Below, in pieces: positions 2,738-28,253 of a DNA stretch of 32,990 bases. The translations under genes were made by a program, and so were the position numbers. A model generated the notes under the pieces. The model was not told the origin of the DNA. It saw only the letters and a list, made by a program, of their open reading frames with translations, and searched no databases. The DNA is from Clostridia bacterium. Lineage in GTDB: Bacteria > Bacillota > Clostridia > DSM-8532. Positions within the stretch are counted from its first letter, which is position 1. Each line of letters starts with the position of its first letter. The stretch spans positions 1 to 32,990 of the forward strand of contig JAIFNI010000287.1 of the NCBI GenBank assembly GCA_020047785.1, written 5' to 3'.

Positions 2738-3430
2738 ATGACCGGATTTGCCGTGGATCGGCATGAATGGAAATATCTCGTATCCCGGAAGGAGCACCGG
2801 ATTCTGTCCGGACTGCTGGCCGGTGTGTTCGACGCGGACCCCCATGCAGGGTCCGAGGGCACGTACCCGGTTCGCAGCCTGTATTTTGACACTCCAGATC
2901 AATATGGATACCATTCGAAGATCGATGGCCTTTCGGACCGTCACAAGGTCCGTCTTCGGCTGTATGATGTCACACAGACAAAAGTGAAGCTGGAGCTGAA
3001 AGCGAAATCAGGAAATGTCATGCGAAAGGAAACCCTTTGGATTACAAGGCATGACGCGGAACAGCTGTGCAGGGGCGAGACGGATTTTCTGGCGGACCTG
3101 GAGGCGGGAAATGCGGGTGCCCTCTACCGGGCCATCAAGCGGGAGACACTGCGACCTGTCACTTTGGTGGAATATGACAGGGAGGCTTATATCTGTTCGG
3201 CCCAGTCCATCCGGATCAATTTCGATTTGAATGTGCGCGCAACGTCTTCCTGTCTTGATTTGTTTCATGAGGAACCAGCATTCACACGTCTTTCAGATAA
3301 AGAGGACATTGTTCTGGAGGTGAAACATCCCGGCCATCTGCCGGATTTTCTCCGAAGCCTCCTGTCCGTTTGTGACCCGGTCCGCACATCCTACAGCAAG
3401 TACTGCATCGCCAGGGAACGGATTTTCTGA
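2738..3430 (+). CDS. VTC-domain polyphosphate polymerase family protein
   Basis: RHEWKYLV, YPVRSLYFDTPDQYGYHSKIDGLSDRHKVRLRLYD, VKLELKAKSGNVMRKE, RPVTLVEYDREAY, VLEVKHPGHLPDF, SKYCIARER. RBS aggag upstream of ATG 2738. Confidence 0.88.
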   Translation: MTGFAVDRHEWKYLVSRKEHRILSGLLAGVFDADPHAGSEGTYPVRSLYFDTPDQYGYHSKIDGLSDRHKVRLRLYDVTQTKVKLELKAKSGNVMRKETLWITRHDAEQLCRGETDFLADLEAGNAGALYRAIKRETLRPVTLVEYDREAYICSAQSIRINFDLNVRATSSCLDLFHEEPAFTRLSDKEDIVLEVKHPGHLPDFLRSLLSVCDPVRTSYSKYCIARERIF

Positions 3431-3500
3431 TAGGGTCCGCACATCCTACAGCAAGTACTGCATGGCCAGGGAGCGGATATTCTGACCCGGTCCGCGCATC
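3379..3500 (+). repeat. 55-bp-period tandem duplication of the 3' end and stop codon of the VTC gene (2 copies plus a partial third)
   Basis: ggtccgcacatcctacagcaagtactgcatcgccagggaacggattttctga (3379-3430) repeats at 3434-3485 with 3 mismatches; third partial copy gacccggtccgcgcatcct. Confidence 0.92.
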
Positions 3501-3544
3501 CTGCCGGGAATGTTGAACAGAGAACAGAAACATGAGGAGGACAC

Positions 3545-8018: not shown

Positions 8019-8031
8019 CATGATATTCCAT

Positions 8032-8115
8032 CAGAATCAGAGTCAGAGTCAGAGTCAGAATCAGAGTCAGAATCAGAGTAAAAGTCAGAGTCAAAGTCCG
8101 AAACAGAGTCAGAGA
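8032..8115 (+). repeat. Hexanucleotide repeat (CAGAGT/CAGAAT), 14 units including variants
   Basis: cagaat cagagt cagagt cagagt cagaat cagagt cagaat cagagt aaaagt cagagt caaagt ccgaaa cagagt cagaga. Confidence 0.95.
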
Positions 8116-11584: not shown

Positions 11585-11635
11585 TCAGTCCTGTGTCCGG
11601 CTCAATCCTGTGTTCGGCTCAATACTGTGTCCTGC
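11585..11635 (-). repeat. 17-bp tandem repeat x3 starting at the stop codon of the glycyl-radical enzyme gene
   Basis: Minus strand: GCAGGACACAGTATTGA / GCCGAACACAGGATTGA / GCCGGACACAGGACTGA. Confidence 0.9.
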
Positions 11636-13687
11636 TGAGAATCTCCCGCTGTACGTTTTTTTCAAGGTCCACAAAGCGCGCGCTGAAGCCACCGACTCTG
11701 ACGAACAGATGACCGTATTTCTCAGGTTTTTCCACGGCGCGTGCCAGGTCCTCCCGGTTTACGACAGAAATCATGGCTTGCGTTCCGCCGTTGGCGAAAT
11801 AGGCGCCGACAATCTGCCGGACGAGGGACACGCCGTTTCGGAACAGGTCCGGCGACATCATGATGTTTTGGACCGCGCCGGCGTGGATGCGCGGATCCAG
11901 CTTGACGAGCGAGTTCAGCATGGCCGTCAATCCCATCCTGTCTGTGCCGTTCCATGGATTGTTCGCGTTGGCCATTGGCTCGCCTGCATGGCGGCCATCC
12001 GGGGATGCGGCTGTTTTCATACCCAGGATTGTGTTGGCGCTGTTGTTGATGACCACGACGAGATAGGAATGGAGCCCGACACGTACCGCTTCGTCTCTTG
12101 CTGCGTGGCATACCTGTTCATGTACGCGCATGGCCATCCGATCCGCTTCGGGATGGTCGTTGCCGTATTTCGGAAGAGCCAGCAGAAGACGCTGCAGGTC
12201 CGGACATCCGGCATAATCCGCGTCAAGCGCCGACATCAGGCGTCCGTGCTCCACCTGAGGCAGATCGAACAGTGTTTTTTTTACCGCAAGCAAGCTGTTC
12301 GCGGCATTGATGTTTCCATAGGTCTCGATTGTTCCGCCCAGGTAACGGACACCGCCCGTAAAAAGAGGCAAACCGCGGGAAATGCAATCATCATACAGCA
12401 GGCTCAGAAAAAGGAAAGGAGCGGTCCGTCCGACAACCTCGTACTCGATCTTCTCCTGTTCGGCCAACGCTGCGACAAAGTAGGATACCTGCCGGGCATA
12501 GGCGTCAAAAAAATCGTCGAAGGATGTGAATGAAGCAAGTTCACCGGTCTCCAGGCCGATTTGTCTGCCGGTCAGGGCATCCCGTCCATTTCTCAGGGTG
12601 ATTTCGACTGCCTTCAACAGGTTGATGACTCCGCTCGGTGTGCCGAAACTCCTATGGTCGATGACATATTCCCCGCAACCGAATGGAAGGTACTGAACAG
12701 CCTCCTCCATGGGAAGCCGGAAGGCATTTTGCACTGCCTCGATGTTGACATCATCGTTGTACAGCATCGGAAAGGTCCTGCCTTCCGCGATCACGGAGAG
12801 TGCCTTTTCCATCAGGGATTCATCCATGCCCGCATGCCATCGGAGCGTCAGCTGCGGGTCGGAACCCGGAACAAGCCGGGTCGCCTCCATGGCCAGCAGC
12901 GCGAATGCGTCGGCATTCCGTTCATTTCTGCGCCCGCGCCCGCCCAGAATGATTCTGCCGTTCCATGTGGTGTTCCTTTCGGCGATCAGTCGCCAGAAGG
13001 AGGTGACCATATCCTGCGCTTCCGCTGCTGTGAGACGTTCTTCTTCGAGGTCCCGGGCAAGGTAATCTCCAAGGCAGACATCCATCCGTCCATAGTTCAT
13101 GCTGCCGCTGAGAAGGGCATAGAGCCAGATCAGCTGGATGGCTTCCCTCAGGGTTTGCGGTGTACCCGTCGCGATGTTTCCCAGTGCTGTCGCGACAGCA
13201 TGCAGTCGGGAGCGGGTTTCTGCAGGGAGCAGGATGTTCCCGGCCAGCGCGAGGGATTCATCCGCATAACGTTGACAGACTTCGGACAGCAGATCGAGGG
13301 CGGCCAATGTGCCGGAAAGAAACGTTTCATCAGGGCTTGCTTCCGAGTGGCCCGCACCTTGAAACTGGTTTGCTCGGTTCGCCAGAAGTCAAGCATTTCA
13401 AGGATTTCCTTTTCGCCGGGACCCGTGTCTCCCTGAAGTGCCAGATCACGTCGGACCTCCTCCTCATTGCAGTAATAGCCGAGTCCGCCCGGCTCCGGAC
13501 TGAATCCGACAGGGCTCATGCGGATGCGGCCCGCGAACCCGTCTGTTTCCCGGATCGGCAGCAGGACATGCGGGAGCATTTCCGCCAGGCAGCGAGCTTC
13601 GCGAACGGCGGCAGGTTCACCGGCGCACGCCTGATAAACCCGGGTAAACTGGAGACTGTAACGAAGTGACTGCGCATGCTGGTTCAT
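11619..13687 (-). pseudogene. Glycyl-radical enzyme (pyruvate formate-lyase-like superfamily), frame-disrupted near the N-terminal third
   Basis: Active-site-type YLPFGCGEYVIDH, glycyl-radical motif HLFVRVGGFSARFVDL, MNYGRMDVCLGDYLARDL. N-terminal part (MNQHAQSLRYSLQFTRVYQA...FWRTEQTSFKVRAT) is in another frame from 13687; frames switch at about 13335-13355. Confidence 0.85.
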
Positions 13688-13725
13688 ATCGGATCCTCCG
13701 GTGGATTTGATTTTTCTTTTATATC

Positions 13726-13825
13726 CTGATTGTAGTTTCCACTGTGTATTCTGATTATAGTTTCCACTGTATATACTGATTTTAGTTTCTACCATATATT
13801 CTGATTTTTGTTTCCACTGATCAAT
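13726..13825. repeat. Four tandem 25-bp direct repeats between the GRE and AraC genes
   Basis: ctgattgtagtttccactgtgtatt / ctgattatagtttccactgtatata / ctgattttagtttctaccatatatt / ctgatttttgtttccactgatcaat. Confidence 0.93.
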
Positions 13826-21839: not shown

Positions 21840-24350
21840 ATGAGCAAACGCAGATTCATCCTTGATAAATCCGTGTCTTCCTGTGCGCCCATGCCGCAGG
21901 ACAAACGAACCCCGTATCTGCCACGCCATGGAATCTGCAGCACGGCGCCCGCCGAACGCTATTTCGACGCCCTTCAGGCGGCAGGGGCCGGAACAAAAAT
22001 GCTGATTTTCGGAGATCCTTCCGTCGAGACCCTCCTTTTTCAGCACGAACGGCTCTTCAAACGGAAATACAGGGAGAATCTGCAGCCGCCCCGTATCGCG
22101 GACCTGCTTCCAGAGGTGAGACGGCTTCTGCTGGAAGGAAAATCCGTCGAAGCGGCGCAGCTTTCCGTGAAAGGCGCGCGCGAGGACGGGTATGAAGACA
22201 AATTGAAATGGTCGAACGGAATGGAAATACCGGTTGTCAATTTCCAGGCGCATCCCGCTCTGCTCGCGCGCCTTGGCGTGAATGCCTCAGGGCCTGTGAA
22301 GGACTATCTGCGGACGCTGGATTTCGAGTCCGGCGAAGCTGCGGTTCGCTGGAAGGATGACCGGGGGGATTGGGTGAGACGCGGATTTGTCTCGATTCCC
22401 AGGCAACTGGCGGTTCTGCGGCTCATCGCCCCTTCAGGCGCGCCGGGATTTGATCTGGCGCTCGATCTGAGTGTGGCGGACAGCGTCAGCGAACATCCGT
22501 GGGAAAACATGCATTTTCCGGAAGACATGCTGGTGACGCGCGACTACGGGCCGGACATGCTGCTGACCTGCTGCCGGTACAATCCGGAAGTCAACGGGAA
22601 TTCCGGTTATGCGGTCGCAGTCGGCATCCGATCGGAAGGCGGCACCCCGGAAATTCGGGAAAGCGGGATACAAATGCAGGATGTCCGCTCCGTCATGCTG
22701 TTCGTGAAAATCCTTCACATGCCGGAATACGACACGGACGACGCATTGCACCTGGCCGAGTCCGTTCGGTCGGTGTCTTCCTCCTACGAAGAACTTCTGG
22801 CTGAAAACCGGGAAGTGCTCGGTGAAAAAATGCAGAGAAGCACCCTGTCGCTCGGAACCGGGGAAGACAGGGCTTTATCCGTCGAGGAACTTCTTGCGGA
22901 ACAGCATGGCGGACGTGATTTCAGTCTGAGGCTGGTGCATCGGCATGGTGGCTGCGATTTCAGTCCGAAGTTGGTGGAACAGCATGGTGGCCGCGATTTC
23001 AGTCCGAGGCTGGTGGAACTGCTGTACGACATGGGCCGGTTTTTTCTCATCACGGACACCGGGACCTTGCCGCCGGCCTGGGGACAGTACAACATCAATG
23101 TCAACCTCCAGGTATGTTCCGGAAACATCACGAACCTGCCGGAGGAAATGGAGGTCTTTTTCCGATTCATTGAAAGCAGGATTCCGGATTTTCGCGTGAA
23201 TGCACAGAACATTTTCGGGTGCAGGGGCATCCTCGGCGATATCCATCCGGATAGGGACAATGGTCTGCTCTATCATTTCTCTTCCACATGGCCGCATCAT
23301 TACTGGGTATCCTGTGCCGGGTGGGTCTACAATGAATTCTGGGGACACTGGCTTTCCACCGGAGATCAGGATTTCTTGCGAACCCGCGTGGTGCCTGGGT
23401 TGAAGGAAATCGCGCTGTTCTTCATGGATTATCTGAAAGACAGGGACGCACAGGGGAATTATCTGTTTTACCCAGGCTTCTCACCGGAGAACGCATTGGA
23501 TATGAAAACCTGGTGCGGTGTGACCGTCAATGCGACCATGGACATCATGGTCTGCCGGGAAGTGTTTGAAAATCTGATTTCGGCCTGCGAAATCCTTGAT
23601 ATCCAGGATGAGGACCTGCCCGTGTGGCAGGAAATCCTCGATCACCTGCCGCACCTGCTGCTCGATGAGGAAGGCGGCCTGAAGGAATGGGCCTGGGACG
23701 CCATTCCCGAAGACTACAACCATCGGCATGTATCCCACCATTATGACGCCTGGCCGGGACAAGCCGCCAGCTGGGAAGAAACACCGGAACTGGCCCGTGC
23801 CATCCTGATTTCGAACCGGAAACGGGGACAGCAGGATGACTCCGCCCATGGGATTCTGCACCGGATTTTCACGGCCATCCGTCTGAAGGATCCCTGTGAT
23901 TTCAGCATGAATCTCAAGCAGATTCTGGAGCATGGATTCCTCAACCGGAACCTTTCAGCGAATCACTATCCGTACCGGATCCCCTGTCCGGATGTGACCG
24001 GTTCACTGCCGGCCGTATTCGCCGAGATGGCCGTATCTTCCAGACCCGGCGTCATCGAGTTCCTGCCTGCCATGCCCGGCCAGTTCGGAACAGGTCGTCT
24101 GACCGGCATCTGCTCTTACTCGTTTGCACGGGTTTCATCTCTTGAATGGGATCTCGAAAAAGGCTTCATCCAGGCGGAGCTGTTTCCGTTGACGAGTCAG
24201 CGGATCCACATCGGCTGCGGGCTGAAAGTACGCTTCATGACCGCAGATGGGAGGGCGCTCTCGCTTAAGGACAACAGGGCATGGTTGGAACTTGAGAAGG
24301 GAAAGGCGGTCACAGTGACATTGGCTGTGGAACAGCGGCGTTTCGTGTGA
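21840..24350 (+). CDS. GH95-like glycoside hydrolase (alpha-fucosidase/galactosidase clan), copy 1
   Basis: QYNINVNLQVCSGNITNLPE, SSTWPHHYWVS, YPGFSPEN, YNHRHVSHHYDAWPG. Confidence 0.75.
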   Translation: MSKRRFILDKSVSSCAPMPQDKRTPYLPRHGICSTAPAERYFDALQAAGAGTKMLIFGDPSVETLLFQHERLFKRKYRENLQPPRIADLLPEVRRLLLEGKSVEAAQLSVKGAREDGYEDKLKWSNGMEIPVVNFQAHPALLARLGVNASGPVKDYLRTLDFESGEAAVRWKDDRGDWVRRGFVSIPRQLAVLRLIAPSGAPGFDLALDLSVADSVSEHPWENMHFPEDMLVTRDYGPDMLLTCCRYNPEVNGNSGYAVAVGIRSEGGTPEIRESGIQMQDVRSVMLFVKILHMPEYDTDDALHLAESVRSVSSSYEELLAENREVLGEKMQRSTLSLGTGEDRALSVEELLAEQHGGRDFSLRLVHRHGGCDFSPKLVEQHGGRDFSPRLVELLYDMGRFFLITDTGTLPPAWGQYNINVNLQVCSGNITNLPEEMEVFFRFIESRIPDFRVNAQNIFGCRGILGDIHPDRDNGLLYHFSSTWPHHYWVSCAGWVYNEFWGHWLSTGDQDFLRTRVVPGLKEIALFFMDYLKDRDAQGNYLFYPGFSPENALDMKTWCGVTVNATMDIMVCREVFENLISACEILDIQDEDLPVWQEILDHLPHLLLDEEGGLKEWAWDAIPEDYNHRHVSHHYDAWPGQAASWEETPELARAILISNRKRGQQDDSAHGILHRIFTAIRLKDPCDFSMNLKQILEHGFLNRNLSANHYPYRIPCPDVTGSLPAVFAEMAVSSRPGVIEFLPAMPGQFGTGRLTGICSYSFARVSSLEWDLEKGFIQAELFPLTSQRIHIGCGLKVRFMTADGRALSLKDNRAWLELEKGKAVTVTLAVEQRRFV
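22902..23018 (+). repeat. 39-bp in-frame tandem repeat x3 within GH95-like copy 1
   Basis: Units at 22902-22940, 22941-22979, 22980-23018 encode QHGGRDFSLRLVH / RHGGCDFSPKLVE / QHGGRDFSPRLVE. Confidence 0.95.
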
Positions 24351-24375: not shown

Positions 24376-25782
24376 ATGACATTCAATATTCATTGGAACA
24401 TGGAACACCAGGAGATCGACGGATTCGGAGCCTGCGGGGCCTTTCATCAGGCAGGTCATCTCATGAATTTCAAGGAACCGGAGCGTTCTGAAGTGCTGGA
24501 TCTCCTGTTTTCCAGAGAGAACGGCGCAGGACTTTCCATTCTCCGAAACATTGTCGGAGACGGAGGGGTATGGGGAGACGCACTCGATGGTCCGACGCCT
24601 TCCATCGAACCGGTCGAAGGACAATGGAACTGGTCCGGCGACGAAGAACAGATCTGGCTGATGCAGGAAGCGGAGAAAAGGGGATGCAGGCGGTTTTTCA
24701 GTTCCGTCTGGAGCCCTCCCGACTGGATGAAGACCACAAACTGCGTGCACGACGGCGGATTTCTCAGGAAGGACAAATATCAGGCATTTGCCGAATATCT
24801 CTCCGCCTATGTCCGGGGATACAGGGAACGATTCGGTCTTTGTCTGGAAGCGTTATCCATCACCAACGAACCCAACCTGGTCACGCATTATTCGTCGTGC
24901 GAATGGTCCGGGGAGCAGATTCGGACATTCCTTCGAGATTTCCTGATCCCTGTTTTCCGGAAGGACAATGTTGCCTGCAGCCTCCTGCTGCCTGAAACGG
25001 AGAAATTCGGAAACGAGTTCGAAGGACACTATGCGCCGGCGCTTCATGACCCGGAAGTCTGCGGGGCGGTCGGTATCGTGGCCCAGCATGGATACGGCGG
25101 GACGATCGAACCGCTGACGCTCGCACGTGAAAAGGGGAAACGGGTCTGGCAGACCGAGATCTGTGAAATCAGCATCATTCCGGCTGAGGAGACTGGTACG
25201 TCCATCCGGAACGGGATCTTCTGGGCGAAACAGATCCATGCGTATCTTGTGAAAGCGGAAGTCAATGCGTTCTGCTTTTTCTGGGCGGCATCCAAGTATC
25301 ATGACGGGGGTGGTGCTCTGATTGGTCTGAACCTGGCACAGGAAACAGTCGTTGAATACAAAAGGCTGTTCACGATGGGAAACTTCAGCCGGTTCATCCG
25401 TCCGGGTCATGTCCGCATCAATGTGACACAGGGCGAAGGGACGCAGCACGATGGTACGCAGAATAAAGGTGCGCAGGACGAATCGACACAAGACGAAGGT
25501 AACCGGGACGCGTGGACCGGAGAAGTTCTTGTTTCTGCCTATAAGGAAAAGGGAAAGGGCGGATTCGTCGTTGTAGCCATCAATGGAACAGGGACTGAAC
25601 AGGAAATTCGTCTCCGGTTTCCCGGATGCGGGATTTTGAAAGTTCAGGCGTTCAGAACATCCTCGAACGAGAATCTTGAGGCACAGATGGCGCAGATTTC
25701 GGATGAAGCATCCATTGTCGCGGTCTTGCCGGCGATGAGCGTGACGACATATACTGGGTCAATCAAGGGGGGCTCGGCATGA
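24376..25782 (+). CDS. GH30-family glycoside hydrolase
   Basis: EIDGFGACGAFHQ, FFSSVWSPPDWMKTTN, acid/base region ALSITNEPN, nucleophile region VWQTEICE, C-terminal beta domain. Confidence 0.85.
   Translation: MTFNIHWNMEHQEIDGFGACGAFHQAGHLMNFKEPERSEVLDLLFSRENGAGLSILRNIVGDGGVWGDALDGPTPSIEPVEGQWNWSGDEEQIWLMQEAEKRGCRRFFSSVWSPPDWMKTTNCVHDGGFLRKDKYQAFAEYLSAYVRGYRERFGLCLEALSITNEPNLVTHYSSCEWSGEQIRTFLRDFLIPVFRKDNVACSLLLPETEKFGNEFEGHYAPALHDPEVCGAVGIVAQHGYGGTIEPLTLAREKGKRVWQTEICEISIIPAEETGTSIRNGIFWAKQIHAYLVKAEVNAFCFFWAASKYHDGGGALIGLNLAQETVVEYKRLFTMGNFSRFIRPGHVRINVTQGEGTQHDGTQNKGAQDESTQDEGNRDAWTGEVLVSAYKEKGKGGFVVVAINGTGTEQEIRLRFPGCGILKVQAFRTSSNENLEAQMAQISDEASIVAVLPAMSVTTYTGSIKGGSA
25426..25515 (+). repeat. 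15-bp in-frame minisatellite (5 units plus a degenerate sixth) in the GH30 C-terminal domain
   Basis: acacagggcgaaggg acgcagcacgatggt acgcagaataaaggt gcgcaggacgaatcg acacaagacgaaggt aaccgggacgcgtgg, encoding (T/A)Q-rich pentapeptides. Confidence 0.88.
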
Positions 25783-28253
25783 ATCGGGAAATTCGGACAT
25801 TGTCCATGGAGAAACGAGTCGGATCGGTGGGACGCCATGCGGTTTCCGTCGGAACACCAGCCCGGTTTCAGCGGGACGCTCTCTTTACCGGCAACGGCCG
25901 GCATCGACTGCATGTTTTCGGGGATCCCTGCGAGGAAACAATGGTCCTCGAACAGGAAGACCTGTACATGCCCTTATGGAAAGAGACTCCGCGCCCCGCA
26001 GCCACCGCGCAGGTCCTTGGCGAAGTGCGGAGACTGCTGCTCGATGGCAGATATGAGGAGGCCTCATTTCTTTCCATCTATGGCTCCCTCGCGAACGGTG
26101 TCAGTGACCGGCATCTGTATCCTGCCGCCCATCCGGCTTTTGTCCTGAAGATCCGCCGGAACTGTGCCGGCACGGTTTATGATTATCTTCATTCGGTCAA
26201 CCTCCGGAATGCAGTTGTGACAACCCGATGGACGGATGAACGTGGTGCGTGGAGACGTGAATCCCTTGTACCGCGAACTGCTGAGAATATGGCATATACA
26301 CGTATCTCCGCGCCCGACGGATGCGAACAGGAAATCCGTCTGGTCATCGAGAGATCCTTTCCGGCGCTGGAGGGAGAATGGATTCAATCCGCCGACCAGG
26401 CGGTCGGGCATGCAGATTGGAGCACGGTGGACAAGACCGCATCGTTCCGCAGGCGGCCTCAGCCACCCGAACTCACGGTGAAGCATGCGGAAAGGGCCTT
26501 TCTGGTTACGGGCACGTACGCGAAGGAACTCGAAAGAGGCGGATATGCCGCGGTGCTCCTTGTGAACACGAAAGAGGGCAGTGTTTTCTGGGAAAACGAC
26601 GAATGCATCGTTCGAAGCCGCGGGGATATCCTTCTTCTGATGAAAGCGTTGCCGTGTCCTGTACAGACCCCGGACGACCTGCCGAACCTGCTGGATGCAT
26701 TGCAGGAAGCCAGCCGGAAAGCCGGAATGGATTTTGACGCGCTTGCCGAAAAAAACGCCTTGACCCACGGAAATATGTTCGACAGGCTGGAACTGTCTCT
26801 TGGTGCCAGGCCCATGGACTATTTCCTCACGACTGGAGAATTGCTTGAACAGCAGCGGCTGGGTCAGGGAATCCACCCGGTTCTGATGGAAAAAATAACG
26901 GATATGGGCCGTTTTTTTCTGCTCTGCTACGCCGGGCATTTGCCCCCCTTGTTCGGTCATGTCAACATCAACATCAACCATCAGGTGAGCTGCGGCAATA
27001 TCGGTGCGCTGCCGGAAATGCTGGATGTATTCCTGCAATGGATCGAGCGGCAGATTCCGGACGCCCGTGAAAACGCAAAACAGATTTTCGGTGCGCGCGG
27101 ATTCCTGATCGCGGGTCATCCGGATCACGAAAGCGGACTTCTTTATCACTTCAACCACAACTGGCCGCACCATTACTGGATATCCGGCTCCGGCTGGTGC
27201 CTTCAGCCATTTCTGGAGCATTATTTCTGCACAGGAGACATCCAATTCCTCAAGGAACGGCTGTTGCCTCTGTATGTGGAACTTTCGCTGTTTTATGAGG
27301 ATTATCTCACCCTCTTGGACGAGAACGGAAAATGGATCTTCGCCCCCTCCTATTCGCCGGAAAACTTTCCGGCCAATACCCGCACGCAGGTGGCCATCAA
27401 TGCGACGATGGATATCACGGTATGCAGGGAGGTGATGGATGTGCTGCTGGAACTGGGGCCGCTGGCAGGCGTGGGAACACTGGCACAGCGCGAAGTGTGG
27501 GAAAATATCAGGAACAGGCTTCCGGATTATCTGATTGGGGATCAGGGTGAACTGAAGGAATGGGCCTGGGCAAGTCTGGAGGAACGGTACGATCACCGGC
27601 ATCTCTCCCATCTGTACGGCGCGTACCCGGGAGATGAAATCCAACCGGACAGGGATATGGGACTGTACAAGGCGGCGTTCATCTCGAACCGGATGCGCGC
27701 GCAGGAAAATGCCTCGGCGCATGGGGTTGCGCACCGTGCACAGATTGCGGCACGACTGAAGGACCCGGAACTTGTGCAGCTATGTCTGAAGCAACTTTTG
27801 GAAACGGGATACCTCAACGAAGGTCTCTCCACCCGGCACAACCCGTATCTGCCGCACAGCTTTCCGGACGCCCAGGGAGCGATTCCAACCATTGTCCTGG
27901 AGTCCATTCTCTATTCACGCCCGGGACTGATTGAACTGCTGCCGGCAGTGCCCGACTGCTGGCCGGTCGGATCCCTCTCCGGAATGATGACACGCTCGGC
28001 GGTCCGGCTGGAACGACTGCAATGGAATCTTCCGGAAGGGAAGATGAAAATTGCGCTGATGCCGCTGAAGGATCAATGTCTTGAGTTGAAGTATCGGCCG
28101 GGATTTCAAACCCTTGCAGTTGATGGGGTCATCGTCGCGGAAGATGGGAAAGGGTCGAATCTTTTCCTGCACCTGGAGAAAGGCAAAGCCGTGGAGGTGA
28201 ATCTGTCAGGTGCGGGCAGGTTCGACATCAGCAAGGTCATGACGCTGCAGTGA
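25779..28253 (+). CDS. GH95-like glycoside hydrolase, copy 2
   Basis: Paralogue of 21840..24350: VNININHQVSCGNIGALPE, NHNWPHHYWIS, APSYSPEN, YDHRHLSHLYGAYPG. ATGA overlap with the GH30 stop. Confidence 0.75.
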   Translation: MNREIRTLSMEKRVGSVGRHAVSVGTPARFQRDALFTGNGRHRLHVFGDPCEETMVLEQEDLYMPLWKETPRPAATAQVLGEVRRLLLDGRYEEASFLSIYGSLANGVSDRHLYPAAHPAFVLKIRRNCAGTVYDYLHSVNLRNAVVTTRWTDERGAWRRESLVPRTAENMAYTRISAPDGCEQEIRLVIERSFPALEGEWIQSADQAVGHADWSTVDKTASFRRRPQPPELTVKHAERAFLVTGTYAKELERGGYAAVLLVNTKEGSVFWENDECIVRSRGDILLLMKALPCPVQTPDDLPNLLDALQEASRKAGMDFDALAEKNALTHGNMFDRLELSLGARPMDYFLTTGELLEQQRLGQGIHPVLMEKITDMGRFFLLCYAGHLPPLFGHVNININHQVSCGNIGALPEMLDVFLQWIERQIPDARENAKQIFGARGFLIAGHPDHESGLLYHFNHNWPHHYWISGSGWCLQPFLEHYFCTGDIQFLKERLLPLYVELSLFYEDYLTLLDENGKWIFAPSYSPENFPANTRTQVAINATMDITVCREVMDVLLELGPLAGVGTLAQREVWENIRNRLPDYLIGDQGELKEWAWASLEERYDHRHLSHLYGAYPGDEIQPDRDMGLYKAAFISNRMRAQENASAHGVAHRAQIAARLKDPELVQLCLKQLLETGYLNEGLSTRHNPYLPHSFPDAQGAIPTIVLESILYSRPGLIELLPAVPDCWPVGSLSGMMTRSAVRLERLQWNLPEGKMKIALMPLKDQCLELKYRPGFQTLAVDGVIVAEDGKGSNLFLHLEKGKAVEVNLSGAGRFDISKVMTLQ

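Follow-up and report, generated by a model that had tools for sequence, protein, structure and literature searches.

A gene for a glycoside hydrolase in the stretch of DNA from a Clostridia bacterium that was analysed here (32,990 nt, called the window) encodes one 13-residue segment three times in a row. This locus raises the question of how the repeat arose and whether its cause has to be sought in this particular gene or in the genome as a whole. We favour the following account, to which we assign a probability of roughly 0.85: the array is a coding minisatellite, formed by tandem duplication of a native segment, tolerated by the protein, and one of many such arrays in the genus. The relevant features are:

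21840-24350, + strand: gene for the array-bearing GH95-like glycoside hydrolase, 836 aa (open reading frame, Pfam, structure-sequence similarity)
22898-22905, + strand: left member of an 8-nt imperfect direct repeat, GGAACAGC (8-nt overlap between the 47-nt copies)
22902-22940, + strand: unit 1, encoding QHGGRDFSLRLVH
22941-22979, + strand: unit 2, encoding RHGGCDFSPKLVE
22980-23018, + strand: unit 3, encoding QHGGRDFSPRLVE
23015-23022, + strand: right member of the flanking direct repeat, GGAACTGC, 7/8 identical
25779-28253, + strand: paralogue of the array gene, likewise GH95-like (35% identity), with one unit at the matching place (Pfam, alignment, codon view)

The three 39-bp copies at 22902-23018 (+ strand) follow each other in tandem in the frame of the open reading frame 21840-24350, where they form codons 355-393, that is, three consecutive units of 13 codons. 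Tandem Repeats Finder (TRF) reported a period of 39, 3.1 copies and a score of 163, and with head-to-tail copies and a unit between 10 and 100 bp the array is a minisatellite. TRF and the alignment of the units thus confirm the three-fold 13-residue duplication that a preliminary description of this DNA had noted. The units had been called nearly identical at the DNA level, which is an overstatement, as they differ at 10 (units 1 and 2), 6 (1 and 3) and 4 (2 and 3) of 39 positions, corresponding to identities of 74%, 85% and 90%. In the same order, the silent and replacing codon differences number 3 and 5, 3 and 2, and 1 and 3. Compared with the single-unit state the expansion adds 26 amino acids, and the reading frame is intact across all 836 codons. 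Since order-2 and order-5 Markov sequences matched in size and composition to the 464-kb sample of the source genome yielded no array at a TRF score of at least 60, the array is not a product of chance.

The 836-aa protein belongs to GH95 by the Pfam gathering score: the catalytic domain PF22124 (Glyco_hydro_95_cat) is matched with 181.4 bits against a cut-off of 27 (E 3.6e-53). The GH65/95 N-terminal domain PF14498 is found as well (E 1.1e-12), and in a phmmer search solved GH95 structures including 4ufc were matched, the best being 2rdy (E 2e-37). The residues N420, N422, E616 and D718, which we take to be catalytic from general knowledge of AfcA, match alignment columns whose conservation extends to 29-33 of the 35 rows, duplicate rows included. 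The two Asn, the Glu and the Asp are accordingly predicted to be retained, and the protein is presumably an active enzyme. Both Pfam domains and the predicted N, N, E and D are shared with the GH95 enzymes BH0842 (2rdy), 4ufc and the alpha-1,2-fucosidase 7znz, whereas the LQGIWN-bearing loop of canonical members is missing from the subgroup of the array protein and its 26 additional residues are absent from these three enzymes. Genes for a GH30/GH59-like enzyme, a GH29-like alpha-L-fucosidase and a GH2 enzyme lie nearby, so the setting is a glycan-degradation cluster. The GH30-like neighbour (open reading frame 24376-25782) contains at 25400-25560 a degenerate GTQHDGTQNKGAQDESTQDEG stretch that resembles an older 5-residue repeat; no repeat was detected there at the DNA level.

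The homologues show what the site looks like without the expansion. The closest one, in genome G016 (53% identical), reads EELLALQHGKQDLCPALLEKLYDLGRY between the same flanks and is two units shorter there than the array protein. Because the QHG..D sequence is recognisable at this site in the G016 homologue, it was a native segment that was duplicated. By alignment and codon view a single unit-length segment is also present in G011, G006, G019 and G015, in the second G016 copy and in the paralogue at 25779-28253, as the preliminary description had stated for the latter. The one exception among the aligned homologues is the remote L027 (23% identical), which has an unrelated longer insert at the array site. 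A search of 32 genomes of the family gave no further close homologue of the array gene, and the congener (G001), one of two genomes of the genus in the comparison, is without an orthologue. With single-unit homologues and no other close homologue, the expansion is lineage-specific among the genomes compared; apart from L027, the aligned homologues carry at most one unit, and the comparison did not reveal an ancient, fixed state with three diverged units in all orthologues. The expansion had also been called recent. This holds in so far as it took place once the lineage had separated from that of the 53% identical homologue, but the copies have since diverged by 10-26%.

In our view, tandem duplication close to the beginning of the GH95 catalytic domain turned one native segment of 39 nt into three copies in this lineage; strand slippage between short direct repeats is the likeliest route, and point mutation then made the copies diverge. 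Since 39 is a multiple of three, the frame was preserved. As the array is bounded by GGAACAGC and GGAACTGC, short direct repeats spaced 39 nt apart may already have been present in the ancestor with one copy, as would be expected under slippage, and the flanking 8-nt repeat is possibly the homology that was used. This arrangement is suggestive only: the 8-nt homology is not visible in the G016 gene and could be due to chance. Insertion of a dispersed element was considered and rejected, since a 201-bp query matched only itself and 23 bp in an oxidoreductase-like gene. This exact match, TCCGTCGAGGAACTTCTTGCGGA, lies at 22878-22900 just before the array and at 1501-1523 of L002, reads SVEELLA in frame in both genes and is probably a convergence through codon bias. 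A scan of genome_contigs gave a single weak match, which is irrelevant.

As to its place in the protein, the repeat had been predicted to lie ahead of the catalytic barrel. In canonical GH95 members the Pfam catalytic domain begins at residues 278-286, and the array site corresponds approximately to residues 321-329 of L012 and to positions 44-52 of the 408 positions of the Pfam GH95 catalytic profile. The profile alignment begins at position 6 in the unexpanded G016 protein and at position 72 in the array protein. From this correspondence and these alignment starts it follows that the insertion falls within the annotated catalytic domain, close to its beginning. The array precedes N420 and N422, the asparagines predicted for the active site, by about 30 residues. 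A structure prediction for two proteins of the window reached a mean pLDDT of 38.5 and was not used as evidence; that the insertion falls between a helix-like SVEELLA segment and a LVELLYDMGRFF helix is only a guess, with the helices assigned from this poor model. The additional 26 residues probably lengthen a loop on the surface, ahead of the first helix of the barrel, and the enzyme probably tolerates them.

The array is not alone. Sampled stretches of the source genome, of the congener and of relatives, chosen by contig number and covering 12% of the source genome and about 6% of the congener, were scanned with TRF at a score of 60, and arrays were counted on readable bases. These samples contained 60 arrays for the source genome (464 kb, 12.9 per 100 kb) and 37 for the congener (153 kb, 24.1 per 100 kb). 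Elsewhere in the family, six genera together had 4 arrays (410 kb, 1.0 per 100 kb); in 332 kb from other families of the class there were 6 (1.8 per 100 kb; 2 of the 20 fetched stretches were wholly masked), and in 100 kb of E. coli MG1655 there was none. The sampled density in the genus is thus 13-25 times that of its sister genera. The Poisson probabilities against the family rate, about 3e-45 for the source genome and about 5e-38 for the congener, assume independent arrays and a fair sample, so that more weight should be given to the fold change than to these values. By extrapolation the source genome is estimated to hold about 500 arrays. Five more were found by TRF in the window, at 693-756, 3373-3502, 8031-8114, 11585-11636 and 13720-13819, with periods of 26, 55, 6, 17 and 25, respectively; the one with the 55-bp period begins at the 3' end of a 250-aa open reading frame and continues past its stop.

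Across both genomes of the genus the period is divisible by three in 36 of 40 arrays within open reading frames of at least 300 aa and in 11 of 46 outside open reading frames (Fisher p about 3e-10). Part of this bias may stem from the calling of the frames, which was done mechanically from stop to stop, and repeats with other periods are themselves likelier to break a frame; the rest is what selection against frameshifts would leave. The array in the GH95-like gene is therefore best described as one instance of the 10-60-bp tandem duplications that occur in excess across the genus and have passed a filter for reading frame. Minisatellites are well known in bacterial genomes as small variable segments, and the arrays found here resemble such VNTR loci in their tandem units of 10-100 bp, in their genic or intergenic location and in being in frame when genic (PMC2884548). 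They differ in their density of 13-24 per 100 kb in the sampled genus, far above that of the relatives. In a narrow literature search no description of this array excess at the level of the genus was found.

Two other explanations of the array itself were weighed. The repeat could have been selected because it alters substrate access, oligomerisation or stability of the enzyme, and both its site shortly before the predicted active-site asparagines and the intact frame would suit such a role. However, the copies differ by 2-5 amino-acid changes with no clear excess of silent ones, and since like arrays occur all over the genome, within and outside genes, a gene-specific cause is not needed; we therefore regard a functional insertion as unlikely. 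An artefact of assembly or binning is more improbable still. Assembly errors are known to arise at tandem repeats (PMC6868369), and the genome bin is fragmented, with 332 contigs and an estimated completeness of 75%, but the three copies can be told apart by 4-10 substitutions, the frame is unbroken over 836 codons and a separately assembled congener has the same kind of excess.

The array is thus real and ordinary in kind, a tandem duplication that would be neutral for the enzyme. The preliminary description was correct in the main, its reading as an expansion being sound, and missed the wealth of such arrays genome-wide. As a single case the locus illustrates that an enzyme domain accepts a 26-residue tandem insertion near its start. 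Its value is that of a pointer to a minisatellite-rich genus, and it is the genome-wide excess that is noteworthy: the genus is suited to the study of slippage, frame selection and protein tolerance acting together, and a comparison with the low-repeat sister genera might reveal a difference in replication or repair.

What could cause the excess? The genus could be in a heritable mutator state for tandem duplications, in which an altered replication or repair factor raises their formation or lowers their removal, a proposal to which we give somewhat less than an even chance. If true, it would supply a steady stream of in-frame insertions into ordinary enzymes, of which the present array would be one. 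Alternatively, the cause could be purely selective, with a small population size leading to weaker removal of neutral duplications. Loss of a repair gene was rejected as the cause, as both genus members have PolA, MutL, RecJ and the large subunit of ExoVII (in the congener PolA is represented by a C-terminal piece only, on a contig) and the source genome has a full MutS; that MutS is absent from the congener, which is 83% complete, is uninformative. The SbcC model gave nothing above the cut-off in any relative, so that no conclusion on SbcC is drawn. High G+C was discarded as well, because in genus g7, whose G+C is 50%, 73 kb contained no array. Both genus members encode an additional DNA polymerase of family A that has no match to the 5' exonuclease part (G000:C200:16492-17775, L094, and G001:C137:3429-4958); it occurs also in the low-repeat G007 and was likewise rejected. 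Most relatives have a PolA match of about 2640-2706 bp, while that of the source genome spans 2778 bp; for RecJ, the open frame is 768-798 aa long in the two genus members and about 720-760 aa in most of the family. These long PolA and RecJ genes are located on G000:C127, G000:C12 and G001:C148, and their excess length is possibly due to insertions of the same kind as the array.
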